In this document: one piece after another, positions 18,591 to 49,213 of the stretch
Position numbering within the stretch: position 1 is the first letter of the stretch
Layout: each line of letters starts with the position of its first letter
Origin: Caulobacter sp.
Lineage (GTDB): Bacteria > Pseudomonadota > Alphaproteobacteria > Caulobacterales > Caulobacteraceae
Assembly (NCBI RefSeq): GCF_017744445.1
Contig: NZ_JAGIBH010000016.1
Location: forward strand, 1 to 64,000
Direction of reading: 5' to 3'
DNA: 64,000 nucleotides
Program-made: the position numbers and the translations under genes
Notes under the pieces: generated by a model
Seen by the model: the letters and a program-made list of their open reading frames with translations, nothing else
The model's database searches: none
Told to the model about the DNA's origin: nothing

Positions 18591-19547
18591 TTAAAGCAGG
18601 GCCTGTTTCATGGCGGCGAAAAAGCCGGCCTGATCGATCTTCTTGATCACCCGTGCATTGGGCGGCCGACGCTTCAGGGCCGGGTCGGCGATCTCGATGT
18701 CCGGCAGGATAGAGTGTGAGACGCTGAGGTAGCCACGTGTCAGCTCGCCCATGGTCTCGACGTCGACCACGCAGTCCTCGGCTTTCAGGATCAGGCGCTC
18801 ATCCAGGGCGATGGCGCAGGTGAGGGCGTCCGGGTGCAGGCTGCCGTCCAGTCCCTCGGTCTCGCGGGCGAAGGCCAGCGAGGCGCGGTTCACGTCGGTG
18901 AAGAACTTGGCCTTGTCGGTGCCCAGGGCTTCCAGCTCCGCCAGTTGCGCGGTGCTCCACAGGCCGTCGTTCAGCGTCAGGGTCCAGGTGGCGATCGACA
19001 GGTTGAAGCCGGCATTGACGACGATCTTGGCCGCCTCGGGATCGACATAGAAATTGTACTCGGCGGCCGGGGTGACGTTCCCGACGCCATTGTCCGTGCC
19101 GCCCATGACCCACAGATGCTTCAGCGCCTTGGCGATGCGCGGTTCGCGCAGATAGGCCAGGGCGATGTTGGTCAGCGGCGCCTGGGCGATCAGGGTGATC
19201 TCTCCGGGCGCGTCCATGATCCGCCGCACCAGCTCGTCGACCGCGTGGCCGTCGGCGGGGCGCTGGGCGGCTTCTGGAAAGCCGCTGTCGCTCATGCCGT
19301 CGTGGCCGAACACATAGGCGGCGTCCAATGGCGCGCGCGTGAACGGCGCCTGGGCGCCCAGATAGACCGGCACGCCGGCCTTGCCGCATTGCTCCAGCGT
19401 GACCAGGGCGTTCTCGGCATGCTGGACGAAGCCGACATTGCCGTGGGCGATGGTGATGGCCTCGACGGTCACGCCGGGGCGGGTGAGGGCGAGCATCAGG
19501 GAGAAGACGTCGTCGCCGGCGGTGTCGGTGTCGATGATCAGGCGCAT
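18591..19547 (-). CDS. inosine-uridine preferring nucleoside hydrolase family protein
   Basis: MRLIIDTDTAGDDVFSLMLAL (DTDxGxDD motif); ORF extends to 19781 but start at MRLIIDTD is most likely. Confidence 0.9.
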   Translation of the reverse strand: MRLIIDTDTAGDDVFSLMLALTRPGVTVEAITIAHGNVGFVQHAENALVTLEQCGKAGVPVYLGAQAPFTRAPLDAAYVFGHDGMSDSGFPEAAQRPADGHAVDELVRRIMDAPGEITLIAQAPLTNIALAYLREPRIAKALKHLWVMGGTDNGVGNVTPAAEYNFYVDPEAAKIVVNAGFNLSIATWTLTLNDGLWSTAQLAELEALGTDKAKFFTDVNRASLAFARETEGLDGSLHPDALTCAIALDERLILKAEDCVVDVETMGELTRGYLSVSHSILPDIEIADPALKRRPPNARVIKKIDQAGFFAAMKQALL

Positions 19548-19639
19548 GGCGCCGATCTGAACCGATCCGGCGGGCTTGGCCATAGGGACGGGGCGCCTAT
19601 CGAGTGACTCGGGCGAAGAAAATGTGGTGGAACGTCGCG

Positions 19640-19654
19640 GAACATCTTGTGAAC
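19640..19654. promoter_or_regulatory. LexA-type SOS box (GAAC-N7-GAAC)
   Basis: gaacatcttgtgaac, reverse complement of the alphaproteobacterial GTTC-N7-GTTC operator; 49 bp upstream of the 29-aa ORF. Confidence 0.8.
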
Positions 19655-19703
19655 AGAACAAAACCGGAATATGGAACAAAACAAGAAATCTGTGGAGGTT
19701 CCG

Positions 19704-19793
19704 ATGATCCGTATCGCGCGTGAGTCTCTGGCCCTTGTGTCGGTCGCCAGCTTCGTATGGATGATGTGTACGGTCGCCCAACTGGTGGCCTGA
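19704..19793 (+). CDS. sidA: 29-aa putative membrane peptide, SidA-like SOS division inhibitor
   Basis: [32 protein letters not shown] tggagg upstream; LexA box upstream; lies just before dnaE. Absent from ORF track because of length. Confidence 0.8.
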
Positions 19794-19822: not shown

Positions 19823-22800
19823 ATGGCGGACGGGGAAGGACAGGGTTTCGTCCACCTGCGGGTCCGCTCGGCCTATTCGCTGCTCGAGGGCGCCATCAAG
19901 GCCGACCAGATCGGCAAGCTGGCCGCCGCGGCGGGCATGCCGGCGGCGGCGATCGCCGACCGGGCCAACCTGTTCGGGGCGCTGGAATATTCGTCCTACG
20001 CCAAGGACGCGGGGGTCCAGCCGATCATCGGCTGCGCCATTCCCGTCACCGGCATCGGCGGCGGCCCGACCGAGCGCTGGGCCCGCGCGCCGACGATCAT
20101 GCTGCTGGCCCAGAACGAGCTGGGCTATCTGAACCTCTCCGAGCTGTCGTCGATCGCCTATCTCGACAGCGCCGAACTGCCTGAACCGGTCGTGCCGTGG
20201 GCCAAGGTCGCCGAGTACAGCGAAGGCCTGATCATGCTGTCGGGCGGCACGGACGGTCCGGTCGACGCCCTTTATGCCGCAGGCAAGAACGCCGAGGCGT
20301 CGGCCGCCCTGGCCGAGATGCACCGGGTGTTCGGTGACCGGTTCTATGTCGAGCTGCAACGCCACGGCCTGCCCAAGCAGGCGGCCGCCGAGGCGGGCCT
20401 GGTCAACTGGGCCTATGACCATGACGTGCCGCTGGTCGCCACCAACGACGTCTATTTCGCCAAGGAAAACTTCTACGACGCGCACGACGCGCTGCTGTGC
20501 ATCGCCGACGGCTCGTTCGTCGGACAGGACGAGCGTCGCCGCGTCACGCCCGAACACTGGTTCAAGCCGGCGGCGGACATGCGCAAGCTGTTCTCCGACC
20601 TGCCGGAAGCCTGCGACAACACCCTGGATATCGCCCGCCGCTGCGCCTTCATGGTGCACAAGCGCGATCCCATCCTGCCTAGCTTCCCGACCGGCGATGG
20701 CCGTAACGAAGCCGAGGAGCTGCGCTACCAGGCGCGCGAGGGCCTGAAGATGCGCCTCGAAGGGCTGACGATGTCGGCCACTTTGGAGGAGTATGAGAAG
20801 CGGCTCGAGTTCGAGCTGAACATCATCGAGAAGATGGGGTTCCCCGGCTACTTCCTGATCGTCTCGGACTTCATCAAATGGGGTAAGAACCACGGCATTC
20901 CGGTTGGTCCGGGGCGGGGTTCGGGCGCCGGTTCGCTGGTCGCCTGGGTGCTGACCATCACCGACCTGGACCCGCTGCGGTTCGGCCTGCTGTTCGAGCG
21001 CTTCCTCAATCCCGAGCGGGTTTCGATGCCCGACTTCGACGTCGACTTCTGTCAGGAGCGACGCGAAGAGGTGATCTCCTACGTGCAGGAGAAGTACGGC
21101 CGCGACCGCGTGGCCCAGATCATCACCTTCGGTTCGCTGCAGGCCCGCGCCGTGCTGCGCGATGTCGGCCGCGTGATGCAGCTGCCGCTGGGTTTGGTCG
21201 ACCGTCTCTGCAAGATGGTGCCCAACAACCCGGCCGCGCCGGTGACCCTGGCCCAGGCCATCGACCTGGAGCCGCGCCTGAAGCAGGCCAAGAAGGAAGA
21301 CGCCAACGTCTCGGCCTGTCTGGACGTTGCCCTGCAGCTGGAAGGCCTGTTCCGCAACGCCTCGACCCACGCCGCCGGCGTCGTGATCGGCGACCGGCCG
21401 CTGACCCAGCTGACTCCGCTGTACAAGGATCCGCGCTCGGACCTGCCGGCCACCCAGTTCAACATGAAGTGGGTCGAAAGCGCCGGCCTGGTGAAGTTCG
21501 ACTTCCTGGGCCTGAAGACCCTGACCGTGCTGGACCGCGCGGTGAAGCACCTGAAGAAGCGCGGCTTCGAGATCGACCTGGGCAAGCTGCCCTTTGACGA
21601 CACCACGACCTACGAATTGCTCGCTTCCGGCCAGACGGTCGGCGTGTTCCAGCTGGAAAGCCAGGGCATGCGGGACACGCTGCGCAAGATGCGCTGCGGC
21701 TCGATCGAGGAGATCACCGCGCTGATCTCGCTCTATCGCCCGGGCCCGATGGATAACATCGATACCTTCGTCGACTGTAAGTTCGGCCGAAAGCCCGTCG
21801 ACACCCTGCACCCATCGCTGGAGACGGTGCTGAAGGAGACCTACGGCGTCATCGTCTACCAGGAACAGGTGATGCAGATCGCCCAGATCCTGGCGGGCTA
21901 CAGCCTGGGCGAAGCCGACCTTCTGCGTCGCGCGATGGGTAAGAAAAAGAAGGAGGAGATGGATCTCCAGAAGATCCGTTTCGTCTCCGGCGCCAAGGAA
22001 AAGAACGTCCCTGAGGAACAGTCGGGCTCGATCTTCGAACTGGTGGCCAAGTTCGCCGGCTACGGCTTCAACAAGTCGCACGCCGCCGCCTATGCCTTCA
22101 TCTCGTACCAGACGGCCTGGCTGAAGGCGAACACGCCGGTCGAGTTCTTCGCCGCGTCGATGAGCCTCGATCTGTCGAACACCGACAAGCTGGCCGTCTT
22201 CCACCAGGACGCTCGCAAGTTCGAGATCAATGTCCGGGCCCCGGACGTCAATGTCTCGGGCGCCGACTTCGAGGTCGAGAACGGCGAGGTGCTTTACGCC
22301 CTGGGCGCCATCCGCAACGTCGGTCTGGAAGCGATGAAGCACCTGGTGGCGATCCGCGACGAGGGCGGACCGTTCCGCGACATCTTCGACTTCGTCGAGC
22401 GCATCGATCCCAAGCAGGTCAACAAGCGCGCCATCGAAAACCTGGCGCGGGCCGGGGCTTTCGACCAGATCCACAAGAACCGCGCCCAGATCGTGGCCTC
22501 GGCCGACGTGCTGATCGCCCACGCCCAGAGCTGCCACGCCGATCGCCAGGGCGGGCAGGGCGGTTTGTTCGGCTCTGATCCAGGGGCGGGGCGTCCGCGC
22601 CTGTCCAAGACCGAGAACTGGAACCAGGTCGACCTGCTGGACGAAGAGCTGTCGGCCGTCGGCTTCTACCTGACCGGTCACCCGCTGGAAGACGTGGTCG
22701 GCATGCTGCGCCGCCGGCGCGTGGCCCTTGTGACCGAGGCCATGGGGCAGGCCGAGGCCGGCATGGAAGCCCTGCGCATGTGCGGCGTGGTCCGTCGCCG

Positions 22801-23254
22801 CCAGGAGCGCGCCTCGCAGAGCGGTGAAAAATTCGCCTTCGTCTCATTGTCGGATCCGTCCGGTGAGTACGAGGTGCTGTTCCCGCCCGAGAGCCTGCGC
22901 AAGTGTCGTGACGTGCTGGAACCGGGCAAGGCCGTGGTCATCAAGGTCCGCGCCAAGGCTCGGGACGGCGAGGTCCGTTTCTTCGGCGACGACGCCGAAC
23001 CGCTCGAGAAGGCTATCGAGAACGTCGTGGCCGGTCTGCGGGTCCACCTGTCGCCGTCGGCCACCGAGATCGAGGCGCTCAAGCGCCGCCTGGAGCCGGC
23101 CCAGGGCCAGAAGGGCGGCGAGGTCACCTTCGTCGCCGCGATTGGCGGCGGTCGCGAGATCGAGCTGCGCCTGCCGGGGCGGTATTCGCTGGATGCGGCT
23201 CTGCGGGGCGCGCTGAAGACCGCGCCGGGCGTGGCGCTGCTGGAAGATGTGTAG
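19823..23254 (+). CDS. dnaE: DNA polymerase III subunit alpha
   Basis: PHP domain start ([18 protein letters not shown]), [49 protein letters not shown]. Confidence 0.98.
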
Positions 23255-48445: not shown

Positions 48446-49153
48446 CTAGTGATACCGGCGGATCAGGCCCACCAGCTTGCCCTGCACCTCGACCTGGTCG
48501 GGGCCGAAGATGCGGGTCTCATACTTGGGGTTGGCGGCTTCCAGGGCGATTGAGCCGCCCTTCTTGCGCAGGCGTTTCAGGGTGGCTTCCTCGCCGACCA
48601 GGGCGACGACGATCTCGCCCGAGGTGGCGGTGTCGCCCTTCTTGATGATGACGTAGTCGCCGTCGAGGATGCCGGCCTCGATCATCGAGTCGCCCTGCAC
48701 CTCGAGGACATAGTGTTCGCCGTTGCCCAGCATGGCTTCCGGCACCGGCAGGCGCTCGCGTTCGTGCTGGATGGCGTCGATCGGGGTGCCGGCGGCGATC
48801 TTGCCCAGGATTGGCAGTTCGCGACTGTCATTGGCCGGCGCCGCCGAGGCGGCCGGCGCGGGCGGAGGCGAACCGCCGCCTTCGAACACCTGCGGGCGGA
48901 AGGCTCCGCGGCCCTTGGGCGGCGCGGCCGTCGTGGCCTGCTGCGGTAGCTTCACCACCTCCAGCGCCCGGGCTCGGTGGGCCAGGCGGCGGATGAAGCC
49001 GCGCTCTTCCAGGGCCGTGATCAGCCTGTGGATGCCCGACTTGGAGGCCAGGTCCAGGGCCTCCTTCATCTCGTCGAACGAGGGGGAGACGCCGGTCTCC
49101 TTGATCCGCTCGTGGATGAACATCAGCAGTTCGTGCTGCTTGCGGGTGAGCAT
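48446..49153 (-). CDS. lexA: LexA repressor
   Basis: [76 protein letters not shown]. Confidence 0.98.
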
Positions 49154-49198: not shown

Positions 49199-49213
49199 GT
49201 TCTCTAGGCGTTC
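49199..49213. promoter_or_regulatory. LexA-type SOS box (GTTC-N7-GTTC), lexA autoregulation
   Basis: gttctctaggcgttc 46 bp upstream of lexA start. Confidence 0.85.

Follow-up and report, generated by a model that had tools for sequence, protein, structure and literature searches.

The closest known counterpart of the locus considered here is SidA of Caulobacter crescentus, an inner-membrane inhibitor of 29 aa that is repressed by LexA and binds FtsW/FtsN (PMC4211646, PMC12700426). In this species, the filamentation of a lexA mutant is relieved by sidA deletion (PMC4211646, PMC12700426), and the production of SidA alone, from Pxyl, blocks cell division (PMC4211646). Mutations of C. crescentus FtsW at A31, F145, and A246 suppress SidA or a second small inhibitor, DidA (PMC4211646). 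Below, these properties are compared with those of a short ORF located in a 64,000-nt stretch of Caulobacter sp. DNA, the whole of which is hereafter designated as the window.

The sidA ORF and Its Family Membership

The original prediction, made from the letters of the window, had proposed that this ORF is sidA or its orthologue. Translation gives exactly the 29 residues it had stated. The hydrophobic part of the peptide, with a 19-residue mean reaching 1.9, comprises the C-terminal two thirds, in agreement with the helix it had described, and the ribosome-binding site it had judged to be good is a GGAGG motif situated 5 nt before the ATG (Table 1). The peptide matches NF033228.1, the NCBIfam equivalog model of the cell division inhibitor SidA (29 positions, curated cut-off of 35 bits), over residues 1-29 of 29 with 74 bits (E 6.4e-21), which upholds the proposed identity; a lack of similarity to SidA, named beforehand as a reason to abandon it, was thus not encountered. 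The same model is matched by all 32 members of the genus-peptide alignment A1. Among the 289 class genomes scanned, the window's genome alone passed the cut-off, and since Caulobacter vibrioides was the sole match among 14 named control genomes, NF033228 describes the C. crescentus/vibrioides protein. Family membership rests on this curated model, by which the ORF is identified as sidA; the locus adds a new member to the known SidA family and, as a family member, is ordinary. A Pfam search with the peptide returned no family, only weak unrelated matches, and the promoter-sidA region had no match in a phage collection searched for distant DNA similarity.

Table 1. Positions in the window of sidA, its presumed control elements, neighboring genes, and lexA.
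Feature	Position	Strand	Remarks
Divergent gene	18591-19583	-	Nucleoside hydrolase-like, by eye
LexA box 1, GTTCACAAGATGTTC	19640-19654	-	Exact GTTC-N7-GTTC; near relatives L001-L022 only
Presumed sidA promoter	19647-19675	+	TTGTGA, 17-nt spacer, TATGGA; read by eye
LexA box 2, GAACAAAACCGGAAT on +	19656-19670	-	One mismatch; ancestral position; overlaps presumed -35/-10 spacer
LexA box 3, GAACAAAACAAGAAA on +	19674-19688	-	One mismatch; ancestral twin, 18 bp from box 2
sidA ribosome-binding site GGAGG	19694-19698	+	Sequence; GGAGG-like site also kept in relatives
sidA	19704-19793	+	29-aa single-helix SOS division inhibitor; translation, NF033228.1 match, conservation
dnaE	19823-23254	+	DNA polymerase III alpha subunit; presumed second cistron
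lexA	48446-49153	-	Presumed repressor; TIGR00498, 185 bits, over cut-off
LexA box, GTTCTCTAGGCGTTC	49199-49213	+	Exact; 46 nt upstream of lexA start

Conservation in Caulobacter and the Caulobacteraceae

A dnaE match was obtained in 74 of 75 genomes of the genus, and the sidA ORF was found in all 68 genus loci having a readable dnaE upstream region, a conservation of the frame whose absence would have spoken against the original prediction. L017, cut by a contig end, and L047, at a short contig end, were left out of this count; a similar frame is visible in L047, though the rule missed it. The length is 29 codons in nearly all 68 loci and 30 codons in four. In two relatives (L021, L022), the initiator is a GTG at the same position, so the start giving 29 aa is the conserved one, and not an in-frame upstream ATG (40 aa). 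Across 1891 pairs, the proposed frame evolves as a protein (pN 0.127, pS 0.425, pN/pS 0.30), and the other frames lack a protein-type signal (pN/pS of 0.12/0.15 in +1 and 0.16/0.05 in +2). An ORF of only 29 codons might have arisen by chance, but its occurrence at every readable genus locus, its constraint at the protein level, and its 74-bit family match leave this reading with a negligible probability.

A profile of the genus peptides matched 221 of 249 Caulobacteraceae genomes, representing 20 of 22 genera, and at the loci inspected in this family the peptide precedes dnaE. Relatives bearing a name in the public collection included Caulobacter sp. Root343, C. vibrioides DSM 9893, C. endophyticus, and several Phenylobacterium. 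Some genomes that the profile missed carry the peptide by position; those of genus g15, which we take to be Asticcacaulis-like, hold a 28-29-aa helix after twin LexA boxes. Box and peptide seem to have been lost before dnaE in genera g17 (L220) and g18 (L209, L210). A second SidA-profile match in genome G037 (L201, E 2e-4), away from dnaE and devoid of the FVWMMC core, was dismissed, and the weak, partial hits that the narrow profile A1 gave in other families of the order (E 0.009-0.09, mostly in long frames) were attributed to chance.

LexA Operator, Presumed Promoter, and lexA

The upstream LexA box that had been predicted is indeed present: an exact box, GAACATCTTGTGAAC, begins 64 nt before the start codon. 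It is the only full consensus match in the sidA operator of the window, boxes 2 and 3 having one mismatch each, and represents a clade-specific third box confined to the near relatives. Of the Caulobacteraceae upstream regions examined, nearly all have a counterpart of box 2. Two or more LexA boxes with 0-1 mismatch were found within 110 nt in 67 of 67 genus upstream regions, for 0.55 expected from composition shuffles, and in 21 of 23 loci from other Caulobacteraceae genera, for 0.15 expected from such shuffles. The ancestral sidA operator is a pair of twin LexA boxes about 17-18 bp apart. The presumed promoter reads TTGAC...TATAGA in relatives, and a consensus promoter scan of the sidA upstream region called no promoter.

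The exact box found upstream of lexA places the motif where autoregulation would be expected in this genome. Within the window, about 25 kb separate this lexA gene from sidA-dnaE. The intergenic region containing the LexA boxes is shared by sidA and the divergent nucleoside hydrolase-like gene, so LexA might affect both.

Linkage to dnaE

The tight linkage to dnaE, like the further LexA boxes and the wider family, was absent from the original prediction. In the window, 29 nt separate the sidA stop from the dnaE start, a distance that ranges from 9 to 103 nt over the genus, and sidA comes first in an apparent sidA-dnaE operon in every genus genome with a readable region. This spacing suggests that the two genes are co-transcribed. 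A weak terminator-like hairpin spans the sidA stop (19772-19790) and is followed by TCTTTT, for 0.3 such hairpins expected by chance, so read-through into dnaE could be cut; the T run is absent from most relatives. Comparative studies of LexA may have listed dnaE among alphaproteobacterial LexA targets; the open-licence papers searched included no such study. In the same open-licence literature, no link between SidA and dnaE was found beyond one review treating both separately.

The short distance to dnaE, together with a dnaE linkage that extends throughout the family and beyond, would also suit a leader peptide tuning dnaE by its own translation, with a product inert in trans. Such a leader is, nonetheless, very unlikely: the peptide shows purifying selection at the amino-acid level and a hydrophobic helix in every case, the SidA equivalog model is passed, and SidA made on its own from Pxyl is active against division in C. 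crescentus (PMC4211646).

Proposed Mode of Action

Our preferred reading, a LexA-controlled division inhibitor encoded at the head of a sidA-dnaE operon, is considered very likely as a whole explanation. LexA control, FtsW/FtsN binding, and the division block come from C. crescentus and presumably apply to the present species as well; its ftsW was recovered with 360.7 bits, and the encoded FtsW carries A31, F145, and A246. In undamaged cells, LexA would occupy the operator between the divergent gene and sidA, keeping sidA expression low. Upon damage, RecA filaments would promote LexA self-cleavage and sidA would be transcribed. The 29-residue peptide would then enter the inner membrane as a single helix, bind FtsW (and FtsN), and keep the FtsW/FtsI/FtsN complex inactive, so that no septum forms until the damage is repaired. 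The sidA promoter probably drives the replicative polymerase gene dnaE as well.

LexA Box, Peptide, and dnaE Beyond the Caulobacteraceae

In two further families of the same order (f4 and f5), a 25-31-aa one-helix ORF and LexA boxes precede dnaE at nearly every locus. Box and peptide have mostly been lost in f3 (L286-L297), and the peptide upstream of dnaE seems to be lost in f2 (L224, L227), mostly together with the LexA box; any SOS division inhibitor in these two families, as in g17 and g18, would lie elsewhere.

Outside the order, the DNA before dnaE was examined in 66 class genomes with a fixed rule combining an exact GAAC-N7-GAAC and an ATG ORF of 24-50 codons that is preceded by a Shine-Dalgarno site and encodes a hydrophobic stretch. 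Both elements were found in 17 genomes, the box only in 1, the ORF only in 1, and neither in 47, an association for which the Fisher p of 1.3e-13 is indicative only, because relatedness among genomes violates independence and the thresholds were chosen after inspection of the first loci. In the single "box only" case (L236), the peptide is the same as in L255 and has a start that the rule did not accept. The ORF begins 5-90 nt after the box in 17 of 17 loci, and no pair of box and ORF was obtained in 100 shuffle rounds or on the reverse strand. The combination of LexA boxes and a SidA-like one-helix peptide immediately ahead of dnaE was seen outside Caulobacterales at L234, L239, L243, L250, L255, and L308, and further at L310, L338, L354, L364, and L368. 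The dnaE-linked peptides outside this order have no Pfam or NCBIfam name. Within families, the SidA-like peptides are under protein-level constraint, with pN/pS values, from small samples, of 0.14 in f125, 0.19 in f46, 0 in f14, 0.43 in f5, and 0.58 in f4.

Profile A4, built from pooled peptides and run on 290 class genomes with position ignored, placed 21 of 22 matches at E<1e-3 upstream of dnaE (coordinates compared; G813 and G546 checked), most of the genomes matched having fed the profile; the lone match away from dnaE fell inside a 366-aa frame. G474, G761, G546, G705, and G813 had not contributed to A4. The first three hold close relatives of its members, and G813 belongs to f171, a family not represented in the profile. 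Weaker A4 matches were fetched as a selected set (short frames or near dnaE), and 12 such places were examined: an exact LexA box lies 42-87 nt upstream in 11 of the 12 selected places, and 10 are at dnaE, adding families f74, f130, and f23. The match on contig C84 of G693 (L347), without a box and away from dnaE, was set aside. A second profile, A5, searched against 269 phylum genomes, yielded 21 hits with E<1e-4, each of them from within the class and, where coordinates were compared, located before dnaE; no match at this threshold came from outside the class in these genomes, and the best one there (E 0.0066), inside a 308-aa frame, was dismissed. A5 also yielded, some through weaker matches, families f175 (genomes of 5.6-7.4 Mb), f176, f177, and f180; the stretch inspected for f176 showed no dnaE.

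NF033228 matches only 5 of 34 A5 members at E≤1 and leaves most of the distant peptides unrecognised. These are, by their position, operator, and profile similarity, SidA-like and are not filed as SidA. In profile-profile comparisons, SidA was related to the order peptides with a probability of 89% (E 2e-6) and to the class peptides with 91% (E 1.3e-6), and the order and class peptides to each other with 96% (E 3e-9). A common pattern can be written as hydrophobic-x-[K/R/Q/E]-[D/E]-x-x-[A/S]-[L/F/A/G]-x-S-[V/I/L]-x-x-F.

A dnaE-linked SOS peptide of SidA-like type is probably class-wide and is well supported as a genetic arrangement: a one-helix peptide of about 25-38 residues, driven by a LexA box and situated directly before dnaE, recurs in many lineages of Alphaproteobacteria. 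We consider it fairly probable that SidA represents one branch of a family of SOS peptides that is ancient and class-wide, and whose members would serve as the SOS division inhibitors of these lineages and be co-expressed with dnaE; by this reading, the distant peptides may block division. For the distant peptides only, a convergent origin of SOS-controlled membrane peptides that are not SidA homologues, e.g., depolarising peptides of the TisB/DinQ type, would account for identities to SidA as low as 10-30%, for the resemblance of short hydrophobic peptides to one another, and for profile-profile probabilities of just 89-91% from alignments of low diversity. Convergence appears rather unlikely, since place, operator, and size are common to all, an acidic residue followed by [A/S][L/F]xS[V/I]xxF is shared, and intermediates are known in the Asticcacaulis-like g15 and in families f4, f5, f8, f14, and f171. 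In the open-licence papers searched, the distant dnaE-linked peptides seem not to have been described previously.

To our knowledge, the only SOS division inhibitor known in this class is that of Caulobacter. The window illustrates how an easily overlooked gene was correctly called from sequence, and the succession of LexA box, peptide, and dnaE offers a ready inhibitor candidate for each lineage that has kept it. This arrangement would tie a division brake to the expression of the replicative polymerase.

Comparison with Known Division Inhibitors

The window peptide agrees with published SidA of C. crescentus (NF033228; PMC4211646, PMC12700426) in its 29 aa, its single hydrophobic helix, and its upstream LexA box, and comes from another species. 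DidA of C. crescentus is likewise a small one-helix, damage-induced inhibitor of FtsW/I/N but differs by its 71 aa, its SOS-independent control by DriD, and its binding to FtsN (PMC4211646). YneA of Bacillus, ChiZ of Mycobacterium, and SosA of Staphylococcus resemble SidA as SOS-induced one-helix inhibitors of the late divisome, whereas they are larger, unrelated in sequence, and endowed with extracellular parts (LysM in YneA); the 29 aa of the window peptide are too short for such a domain. YneA binds FtsW, and SidA is predicted to bind FtsW TM7 on the other side from YneA (PMC13396833). SulA of Escherichia coli is, as SidA, an SOS-induced division inhibitor, but it targets FtsZ polymerisation (PMC4211646) and is no 29-aa membrane peptide.
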